Assembly: GCF_000025525.1 (NCBI RefSeq)
Contig: NC_013887.1
Span: forward strand, 816,729-880,728
Source: Methanocaldococcus sp. FS406-22
Lineage (GTDB): Archaea; AGJL01; Methanococci; Methanococcales; Methanocaldococcaceae
DNA: 64,000 nucleotides
Reading direction: 5' to 3'
Shown piece after piece: positions 3,188 through 20,551 of this stretch. The notes under the pieces were generated by a model, which worked only from the letters and a program-made list of their open reading frames with translations, was not told the origin of the DNA and did no database searches. Every line of letters starts with the position of its first letter. The first letter of the stretch is position 1. A program made the position numbers and the translations under genes.

Positions 3188-3250
3188 TAAACTATTAAAT
3201 TATGTCATAAATTACGAATTCAACATTAGGACAGATAAGACCAGATGAGG

Positions 3251-3280
3251 CATCACCCGAAGGATTATGCCAGGGTGGTG
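3251..3280 (+). promoter_or_regulatory. SECIS element of hdrA
   Basis: An 8-bp stem (3251-3258 with 3273-3280, one U-G pair) encloses GAA (3259-3261), a GG/CC pair step (3262-3263 with 3270-3271), a six-base loop and a single A (3272). This is the archaeal SECIS plan: GAA opposite A with a short GC stem above. It lies in the 3' UTR of hdrA, as expected for archaea. Confidence 0.85.
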
Positions 3281-3365
3281 CTGATGTTGCAAGTGCTTCT
3301 ATCAATTGAATCTAATTCCTATCATCTTATCGTTGTATAATATAACAATAATTGAGGGGTTAGTT

Positions 3366-18487: not shown

Positions 18488-18700
18488 TTATTGTGATTCT
18501 TGAGCTTTCTTTAACTCTGCCTTCATATCTTGATAAACTTTAGTCCATTTTAATTTTCTTGGGTTTCTTCCCATTCTGTAGCTTTTCTCACATTTTGATG
18601 AGCAGAAATATAATACAGTTCCATCTTTTTCTACTACCATTTTTCCTTTTCCAGGTTCAATTTCATAACCACAAAAGCTGCATGTTCTCCATTCTGGCAT
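18488..18700 (-). CDS. rpl24e: 50S ribosomal protein L24e (eL24)
   Basis: A 70-residue zinc-ribbon protein. It has [11 protein letters not shown] near the start and [10 protein letters not shown] about 18 residues later, the four zinc Cys of eL24, then the basic [12 protein letters not shown]. Length fits archaeal members. GGGGGATAGCT precedes the ATG. It is third in the L7Ae-eS28-eL24 order known in archaea; the kinase ndk that often follows is absent, and the methyltransferase comes next. Confidence 0.95.
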
Positions 18701-18765: not shown

Positions 18766-18993
18766 TTATCTTCTTCTGTCTAATGGTCTTGCTTCTCTCT
18801 CTGTCTCTCTTAACATAATGATATCTCCTACTTTAACTGGGCCTTTAACGTTTCTAACTAAAACTCTTCCAGTGTCTTTTCCACCTAAGATTTTACATCT
18901 AACTTGTATAATTCCTCCAGTAACTCCTGTTCTACCAATAACTTCAATAACTTCAGCAGCTACTGCTTCCTTATAAACAAATTCGTCTTCCAT
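18766..18993 (-). CDS. rps28e: 30S ribosomal protein S28e (eS28)
   Basis: A 75-residue OB-fold protein. [16 protein letters not shown] and the conserved tail [15 protein letters not shown] identify it. I chose ATG 18993 (MEDEF) with AGGTGATG just upstream; upstream starts at 18999 and 19002 overlap the ribosome site. It lies between rpl7ae and rpl24e on the same strand and is likely cotranscribed with them. Confidence 0.95.
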
Positions 18994-19100: not shown

Positions 19101-19454
19101 TTACTGCTTCAAAGCATTTACTTTTTCAATTAATGCCTTTAACTCTTCAGCATTTCCTTCGTTGATGATAGCAACTGATGATGCAGCAACTTCTAATCCA
19201 GCAGCTTTACCTAAGTCCTGTTTTGAAGCTACGTAAGCATAAGGAATTCCTTTCTCTTCACATAAGTATGGGAGATGAGCAACAACTTCTTCTGGTTTAA
19301 CATCTTCAGCAATGATAACTAATTTTGCGATACCTCTTTCAACTGCCTTTGTAACTTCGTTAGCTCCTTTTTTGATTTTTTGTGCTTTTGCAACTGCATC
19401 TAATAACTCTTTTTGAATTTCTTCTGGAACTTTAAATTTTACATAAACTGCCAT
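19101..19454 (-). CDS. rpl7ae: 50S ribosomal protein L7Ae, kink-turn binding protein
   Basis: A 117-residue protein that binds kink-turns in 23S rRNA, in C/D and H/ACA guide RNPs and in RNase P RNA. The signature [23 protein letters not shown] contains the RNA-contact residues of the L7Ae/L30e family. ATG 19454 (MAVYVKF) is preceded by AGGAGGTTGAAAG; a TTG at 19463 is not needed. The leader holds a K-loop (19506-19523) and a hairpin whose loop can pair with the ribosome site, both suitable for autoregulation. It leads eS28 and eL24. Confidence 0.96.
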
Positions 19455-19484
19455 ATCTTTCAACCTCCTTCATCTTTTAAAAAT

Positions 19485-19507
19485 GGGCAATCCGGAGGGA
19501 ATTGCCC
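19485..19507 (-). promoter_or_regulatory. Leader hairpin with anti-Shine-Dalgarno loop upstream of rpl7ae
   Basis: A 7-bp stem GGGCAAT with ATTGCCC (19501-19507 with 19485-19491) whose nine-base loop contains CCTCC. That loop can pair with the GGAGG of the L7Ae ribosome site (about 19471-19477). Two stem bases are shared with the neighbouring K-loop, so the two folds may exclude each other. Confidence 0.55.
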
Positions 19508-19523
19508 ACTCGTATCATCGTGG
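19506..19523 (-). promoter_or_regulatory. K-loop in the rpl7ae leader, probable L7Ae autoregulatory site
   Basis: On the minus strand the 18 bases read CCAC, GAU, GA, UAC, GA, GUGG: a 4-bp C-stem, a three-base bulge ending in U, tandem G-A pairs and a tri-loop. This is the K-loop that L7Ae binds. L7Ae binding to its own leader is published for other archaea; here the site is seen in the sequence and the function is inferred. Confidence 0.7.
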
Positions 19524-19524
19524 A

Positions 19525-19632
19525 TTGTAGCCAATCACCAAACTTTATTACTTAATAAAGGCATTTATAAGCCCAAAAGGGCTTATATACTTTACCATGC
19601 AAAATACTATTTTATTTGGTGATTGGCTACAA
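19525..19632. repeat. 18-bp perfect inverted repeat enclosing 72 bases
   Basis: TTGTAGCCAATCACCAAA (19525-19542) is the exact inverse of 19615-19632. The enclosed DNA holds a second small palindrome (AAGCCC with GGGCTT) and TATA-like sites facing rpl7ae. It could be a miniature inverted-repeat element or a long stem ending the hisG transcript. Confidence 0.65.
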
Positions 19633-19684
19633 GAATAGGTATAACAACTTATTGACTTTTAGTATATAAAACTTTTGGACAGCT

Positions 19685-20551
19685 TTATAAAATCCTCTCA
19701 ATAGGCACTATCAATATATCTCTTGCCCCCAAAGCATGAAGCTTAGGAACTAAGGTAAATATCTCATCCTCATTAACAACTGCATGAATAGCTACCATAT
19801 TATCGTCAGATAAAACCTTAGAAACTGTTGGACCAGCCATTCCTGGAATTAACTTTCTAATTTCCTCAACCTTATCTTTTGGGGCATTCATCATAATTAA
19901 TCTTTTTGTTTCAGCAAATAAAACACTTTTTATTGCAATAACTATTTGATTTATTTTCTCTCTCTTCTCTTTATCTTTTAAGCTATTTTTATTGGCTATT
20001 AATCTTGTAGTTGATGAAATAATTTCATCTACAACTTTTAACCTATTTAACCTTAAAGTTGTTCCTGTAGATGTCAAATCGCTAATTAAATCAGCTATTC
20101 CTATAAATGGAGCTATCTCTGTAGCTCCACTGAGTTCAATAATTTCAACTTTCTTATTTAATTTTTCAAAGTATTTTTTTGTTAGATTTGGGAATTCTGT
20201 TGCTACCCTCATCCCCTCTTTGATATCATCAACACTATTTATATTTGAATTTTCTGGAGCGGCTAAAACCAACTTTGCAAATCCAAATCCAAAATCTAAT
20301 AGAAAATCAACTTTATCTTCAACATTCCTCTCTAAAACTAAGTCATAGCCAGTTACTCCTATATCTGCTACTCCATCAGCTACAAATTCTGGAATGTCTC
20401 TTGCCCTTGCAAACATTACTTTGATGTTGTCATCTACAGTATTGGCAAATAAGCTTCTTCCCTTAACTGTAATCTTTAACCCTGCTTTCTCTAAGACTTT
20501 CATTACTGGCTCTGAAATCCTCCCTTTATTTGGTAGAGCGAACATTATCAT
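19685..20551 (-). CDS. hisG: ATP phosphoribosyltransferase, long form
   Basis: Catalyses the first step of histidine synthesis from ATP and PRPP. The 288 residues are the long HisG type: [12 protein letters not shown] at the N-terminus, [13 protein letters not shown] (about 60-72), the PRPP loop region [18 protein letters not shown] (about 160), and a C-terminal ACT-like regulatory domain (about 215-288) that usually binds histidine. AAGTGAGAG precedes ATG 20551; ATG 20545 is equally possible. Not in a his operon: neighbours are a UPF0058 gene and rpl7ae. Confidence 0.93.

Follow-up and report, generated by a model that had tools for sequence, protein, structure and literature searches.

The question raised by this locus is whether the gene for L7Ae (ribosomal protein eL8) carries, in its own leader, an RNA site at which the protein could act on its own synthesis. 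L7Ae is known to autoregulate through kink-turns (k-turns) in its leaders by translational repression, as described in main-text passages of two papers (Daume et al. 2017, PMC5539422; Huang, Ashraf and Lilley 2019, PMC6298567). We have analysed a window of 64 kb (the whole stretch of DNA under study), in which an earlier note had seen the motif CCAC-GAU-GA-UAC-GA-GUGG ahead of the L7Ae start and on the same strand. This was borne out (Table 1): the motif, here called K1, is separated from the ATG by 51 nt and lies in the predicted l7ae 5' UTR, upstream of the start codon. In the PDB, chain A of 1sds, named L7Ae, is matched by the gene product along all 117 residues; we take this entry to be M. 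jannaschii L7Ae with k-turn RNA. Our main reading, based on comparison of sequences, is that K1 is an L7Ae operator, with a probability of about 0.78; that it acts in cis, in the 5' leader of the protein's own mRNA and by negative translational feedback, is likely as well, if slightly less so. We infer that L7Ae binds K1 and, with less certainty, that K1 is coupled to translation.

Table 1. Features of the L7Ae locus, in window coordinates.
Feature	Position	Strand	Sequence or evidence
K1	19506-19523	minus	CCAC-GAU-GA-UAC-GA-GUGG, 18 nt
K1 C-helix CCAC/GUGG	19523-19520 with 19509-19506	minus	four Watson-Crick pairs; sequence
K1 bulge GAU	19519-19517	minus	sequence
K1 tandem GA	19516-19515 with 19511-19510	minus	sequence
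K1 triloop UAC	19514-19512	minus	sequence; where NC helix expected
Hairpin H	19485-19507	minus	GGGCAAU-UCCCUCCGG-AUUGCCC; GG 19507-19506 common to K1
Candidate K2, Kt-n strand	19489-19498	minus	CCUCC (anti-Shine-Dalgarno, 19498-19494), G, GA (19492-19491), UU; sequence
Candidate K2, Kt-b strand	19464-19476	minus	AA, GAU bulge (19474-19472), GA (19471-19470), A, GGAGG; sequence
MITE-like inverted-repeat element	19525-19632		108 bp, 1 nt upstream of K1
L7Ae / eL8 gene	19101-19454	minus	NCBIfam TIGR03677, 170.5 bits (cut-off 134.6)
eS28 gene	18766-18993	minus	TATA-like TTTTTTATAAATTTTTAAA in preceding gap
eL24 gene	18488-18700	minus	downstream of L7Ae

With the full rule (four Watson-Crick pairs, GAU, GA, 3 nt, GA) the two strands of the window together gave a single match, where 60 first-order Markov sequences gave 0.03 on average. 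When any 3-nt bulge was allowed there were two matches against 2.6 expected, so the specificity of the match comes from the GAU. The compact sequence CCAYGATGATAYGAGTGG at up to three mismatches also gave one match in the window, with 0.06 expected. The earlier note had looked to other methanococci for conservation, and it is indeed found there: compact K1 is present without mismatches, as one copy per genome, in 22 of 36 Methanococcales genomes, and all 22 copies sit in L7Ae leaders. No second place was detected at up to two mismatches in these 36 genomes, which were also those covered by the phylum-wide search (the reversed pattern gave 0-1 matches per strand), and none was seen by eye upstream of the Nop genes at 19 of 30 loci, several of them with uncertain gene starts. 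That L7Ae controls its own mRNA through such a site, as had been proposed, is supported by this conservation in the leader, and autoregulation is very probable from the sequences compared.

Here we take family f2 to be Methanococcaceae, genus g2 to be Methanococcus and genome G004 to be M. jannaschii. The L7Ae gene is present in 33 of the 36 genomes (in G007 and G032 the match is weak, with E about 1e-4, and in G031 there is none). Including enlarged loops, by a regular expression written after the leaders had been inspected, five leaders are added to the 22 compact ones and K1 is found in 27 of 33, namely in 20/20 Methanococcaceae and 7/13 Methanocaldococcus. The six leaders where it is missing (G003, G005, G006, G009, G010, G012) count against its role as operator, as does the 37 nt that separates it from the Shine-Dalgarno. 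Outside the order, 0 of 70 L7Ae leaders satisfied a triloop rule with 4 bp and no more than one G.U, applied to up to 160 nt ahead of the L7Ae match; these 70 were the remainder of the best 80 of 315 relatives, some of them with short upstream sequence and with L7Ae matches that do not always start at the gene start; inside the order the rule is fitted by 21 of 33 leaders at 160 nt and 22 at 230 nt. Among haloarchaeal leaders, L106, L118, L125, L127, L130 and L139 (and, similarly, L114 and L126) have by eye a common GGGGTTGATGACGCT(C/T)CCAGC ... GCGGGG(G/A)A(A/G)TG(C/T)GAGCCC-like arrangement, apparently a further k-turn whose NC helix is long. No Rfam family reached its gathering threshold in the L7Ae leader, and in a permissive scan of 19400-19760 each of the 14 matches fell under its gathering score. 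Elsewhere in the window, at 3241-3287 on the plus strand, the Rfam flpD RNA (RF01737) scores 44.9 bits, above the gathering score.

The variation among the copies bears on what kind of motif K1 is. In the k-turns of U4 snRNA and box C/D RNAs an outer C-helix is followed by a 3-nt bulge on the 5' strand, the G.A tandem and the NC stem. K1 is alike in having the C-helix outside, here the Watson-Crick CCAC/GUGG adjoining the bulge, and in its 3-nt bulge followed by tandem G.A/A.G, both in sequence and in conservation, and at 3b:3n it has a U facing a pyrimidine, reminiscent of the U.U of box C/D; however, it has no NC helix, the place of which is taken by a triloop in the window and in 21 other genomes. 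Variation among the 22 compact copies is confined to two bases: -1b, which is C or U and can pair with G either way, and the final base of the loop, also C or U. The C-helix is nearly invariant, changing only from C:G to U:G at one pair, and therefore covariation says little for it. The enlarged forms are more informative. G008, with AAU for its bulge and a loop of 8 nt (UAUAAAUA), retains the k-turn core, and in four Methanocaldococcus genomes (G002, G004, G011, G013) a hairpin replaces the triloop. The stem of this hairpin has two-sided, compensatory changes at 4 of 9 pairs and is placed as an NC helix would be, but with 2-3 extra nt (UA, UAA or CAA) on the 5' side.

The earlier note had K1 fitting the K-loop rule exactly. 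A K-loop, in the passages of PMC7991803 and PMC7994747 that describe it, is a single stem with G.A pairs in which the terminal loop stands in for the bulge. K1 shares with it the one stem, the tandem G.A and the terminal loop, and K-loops are bound by L7Ae, but there the loop replaces the 3-nt bulge side whereas in K1 it takes the place of the NC helix. The K1 of the window can also be set out in a K-loop register, CCAC-GA-UGAUAC-GA-GUGG. Nevertheless, this register is broken in G008 (AAU-GA-UAUAAAUA-GA), where the k-turn/triloop parse is intact, and the position of the hairpin in the hairpin-bearing forms does not suit it; because of these relatives the k-turn/triloop parse is favoured. What stands of the original fit is the motif as it had been parsed, and what falls is its exactness, as the pairs on the bulge side are kept and the helix past the G.A pairs is lost. 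We believe that K1 is best read as a k-turn with its NC helix reduced to a triloop and not as a classical K-loop (the K-loop is reportedly treated by Nolivos et al. 2005); that is, its sequence is that of a k-turn-like motif in which the NC helix varies, and we class it with neither the standard k-turns nor the K-loops.

The leader holds further elements that were absent from the earlier note, i.e., a possible k-turn at the Shine-Dalgarno (K2), alternative helices and the 108-bp inverted-repeat insert next to K1. The last has near-perfect terminal inverted repeats (TTGTAGCCAATCACCAAA) and a very stable RNA fold (z -8.4). The equivalent site in G001 is empty, and diverged, partly partial copies of the element are found at G000:C1:544088 and in G001 and G004. 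Within it, some 47 nt upstream of K1, is a TATA-like TTATAAAT, a box that the insertion brings to approximately the native distance; in the six other Methanocaldococcus leaders with K1 the box is not inside an insert. Two of the hairpin-bearing leaders, G011 (L006) and G004 (L010), have inserts of about 100 nt within the K1 loop that end in hairpins and are alike at their ends, the stem standing in for the NC helix and the k-turn core being kept. By eye, other hairpin-like inserts lie in G034 (L017), G033 (L023) and G022 (L026), between K1 and either K2 or the upstream strand discussed below, with these elements intact. The L7Ae leader seems, from its sequences, to be an insertion hot spot that tolerates hairpins.

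K2 is a second k-turn candidate, with a tandem G.A and a GAU bulge at the Shine-Dalgarno. Its GGAGG (19468-19464) overlaps the Shine-Dalgarno and could form five Watson-Crick pairs with the CCUCC of the other strand, by which K2 would occlude the Shine-Dalgarno, while K1 does not touch it. The CCUCC is also the loop of hairpin H, which in the free fold extends to 13 bp, GAGUGGGCAAUUC (19511-19499) with GGAUUGCCCAUUU (19493-19481). Both K2 strands (TCCGGAT and nnnGAAGGAGG) occur in 9 of the 13 Methanocaldococcus leaders, and the other four (G005, G006, G009, G010) carry CTGA..GATGAAGG. These four (L011, L008, L009 and L007, respectively) form a group without K1 and without H, in which CUGA..GAUGAAGGAGG, at the Shine-Dalgarno, could be a k-turn resembling that of box C/D. 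The Methanococcaceae have both K2 strands in 15 of 20 leaders and neither in the other five, never one alone. No leader among the 33 is without a candidate site, and 22 combine K1 with K2.

It could then be argued that K2 is the real L7Ae operator, K1 being auxiliary or conserved for some other reason. The published leader k-turns are described, in main-text passages, as very close to the Shine-Dalgarno (PMC5539422, PMC6298567), and of the six leaders compared only that of M. maripaludis has 3b = C or 3n = G (Huang et al., PMC6298567). K2, with 3n = G, fits this element and K1, which has neither, does not. Moreover, the upstream fragment of M. maripaludis used was of 50 bp (Daume et al., PMC5539422), and the main-text passages have it repressed by S. 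acidocaldarius L7Ae in E. coli. K2-type strands are also present where K1 is missing, in the form TCCGGAT + nnnGAAGGAGG (G003, G012) or CTGA..GATGAAGG (the group of four above). On the other hand, K1 occurs without either K2 strand in the five Methanococcaceae leaders, is more strictly conserved than K2, and varies in ways that respect the k-turn. We consider it unlikely that K2 alone is the operator and retain K1 in that role. As far as those passages go, K1 has in common with the published k-turns the gene, the location in the leader and the GAU bulge with tandem G.A, and differs in being a second site, upstream and removed from the Shine-Dalgarno, with a triloop for the NC helix. Its -1b:-1n in the window is C:G, a pair that none of the six published sequences has (Huang et al., PMC6298567). 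In genus g2, K1 runs from -67 or -68 to 49-50 nt ahead of the start; judging from these positions and from the main-text passages, it would seem not to have been part of the published 50-bp fragment.

For K1 to act in the mRNA it has to be transcribed. A transcription start downstream of 19506, which had been set against the site from the outset, has no promoter-like support in the sequence; instead, all seven K1-bearing Methanocaldococcus leaders, window included, have a TATA-like box 38-47 nt ahead of K1, making a start downstream of K1 unlikely. We found no l7ae transcription start for Methanococcales among the open-licence papers scanned by title and abstract (the main texts of PMC10450193 and PMC6705878 make no mention of 'L7Ae'). 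In Methanococcaceae a TATA-like box begins 30-33 nt before a short strand, CCACTC, CCGCTC or CCAACTC, that precedes K1 in 20/20 leaders and in 0/7 of the Methanocaldococcus ones with K1. From this spacing the strand should be at or very near the start of the transcript. It starts 14-17 nt ahead of the first base of K1 (57 and 58 nt in two leaders where an insert separates them) and is complementary to the GAGUGG of K1 (helix P0), apart from a G.U in the three CCGCUC leaders and an additional A in the CCAACUC one; P0 would be cut if the transcript began a few bases later.

This constancy might suggest that CCACUC/GAGUGG is kept for another factor, or as an initiator element, its resemblance to a k-turn being incidental. 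Such an explanation is very improbable, given that K1 persists in Methanocaldococcus where the P0 strand is absent, and that TATA-N18-28-CCRCTCTTTT, found at L7Ae in 7 of the 8 genomes examined (G017, the remaining one, has CCAACTC), occurs at only five other places in these genomes (reversed control, 0-3 per strand), which argues against a general initiator. Least probable of all is that the AUG in GAUGA starts a tiny upstream ORF controlling L7Ae translation: it reads Met-Ile-stop in 17 of the 27 K1 leaders, and AUG AUG AUA UGA in 15 of the 20 from Methanococcaceae, but the AUG belongs to the k-turn core and its presence is thus no independent evidence, no Shine-Dalgarno precedes it, the ORF varies in length (it has 13 codons in the window, between 2 and more than 50 in other leaders, and in G020 meets no stop before reaching L7Ae), and the bases that make or break stops vary freely while the G.A pairs do not. 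In the G020 leader (L035) the K1 AUG is in frame with L7Ae, and an N-terminally extended product is conceivable.

If K1 is the operator, it could be coupled to translation by an exchange of helices. Without L7Ae, GAGUGG (the 3' strand of K1) would pair in Methanococcaceae with CCACUC near the 5' end, forming P0, and in Methanocaldococcus with the CCAUUU after hairpin H, as in the free fold, which gives the H of 13 bp. On binding of L7Ae the core (C-helix, GAU bulge, tandem G.A and triloop) would fold as a k-turn, and the GAGUGG strand would be captured from the alternative helix. In Methanococcaceae the freed CCACUCUUUU (anti-Shine-Dalgarno) could then pair with the AAGGAG of the Shine-Dalgarno. 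In Methanocaldococcus the formation of K1 would shorten H, and the likelier lock would be K2 (CCUCC with GGAGG), held by a second L7Ae.

Folding models agree with this in part. Enforcing K1 in the 27 leaders reduced the accessibility of the Shine-Dalgarno by a mean of 0.204 at 37 C and 0.197 at 65 C, compared with 0.040 and 0.041 in shuffles, with the proviso that the leaders are related, hence not independent tests, and that the nearest-neighbour model is blind to k-turns. For the window leader the loss came to -0.02 at 37 C, a value matched or exceeded by 52 of 60 shuffles, and to +0.14 at 65 C, matched or exceeded by 9 of 60. Two Methanocaldococcus leaders went in the wrong direction at 37 C (L004, -0.12; L006, -0.14), and L016, L024, L025, L026 and L027 had little or no loss at either temperature. 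At 37 C, 18 of 20 Methanococcaceae (all but G022 and G035) gained at least 0.15 in pairing between the Shine-Dalgarno and the P0 strand when K1 formed; at 65 C, 15 of the 20 did (all but G017, G022, G023, G029 and G035). G022 and G035 showed no exchange at either temperature. The corresponding pairing of CCAUUUUU with the Shine-Dalgarno in Methanocaldococcus rose by at least 0.15 in 3 of 7 leaders at 37 C (G000, G008, G013) and in one (G013) at 65 C; in the window it went from 0.00 to 0.35 at 37 C and was 0.04 at 65 C. A uniform exchange in all K1 leaders was dropped for Methanocaldococcus after this weak modelled pairing. Strand exchange is thus a hypothesis that the models make better founded in Methanococcaceae, where we hold it tentatively, with the odds somewhat against it, than in the genus of the window, where we lowered our estimate after the pairing model and now think it improbable. 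The complete scheme, in which the Methanococcales l7ae leader would be a two-site switch operated by protein, with helix exchange at K1, a second L7Ae and K2 as lock in most species and a non-homologous partner (H and K2) in Methanocaldococcus, is doubtful as a whole.

The reach of the operator may be limited to L7Ae. The gene lies downstream of hisG, on the same strand, and the order L7Ae-eS28 is kept in 30/30 loci examined (of the 33 leaders). The gap between the two is 12-54 nt in 15 of the 17 Methanococcaceae loci examined (76 nt in G034 and 101 nt in G035) and 47-135 nt in the 13 Methanocaldococcus loci. It had been suggested that the site would also control eS28 and eL24, which is doubtful: in the window and four relatives (G001, G002, G004, G011) a TATA-like box of the TATAAATTTT type stands in the gap of 73-114 nt before eS28, and because of it these two genes probably have their own promoter in this genome. 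Besides, repression at the ribosome-binding site of L7Ae need not reach genes having ribosome-binding sites of their own.

Autoregulation by L7Ae is already known, and its feedback is a documented example of autoregulation by an archaeal ribosomal protein; the K1 site and its arrangement appear to be undescribed. We saw no upstream k-turn of Methanococcales l7ae in the main texts of the open-licence literature searched, including PMC3124441 and PMC11881835, as far as their passages go. The natural set of leaders (compact, hairpin-bearing, K1-only and K2-only) represents a collection of ready-made test RNAs. If K1 is the operator, the published work on the Methanococcus leader covered only part of it, control would be exerted through two sites, perhaps with an exchange of helices, and L7Ae would accept a k-turn that has no NC helix.
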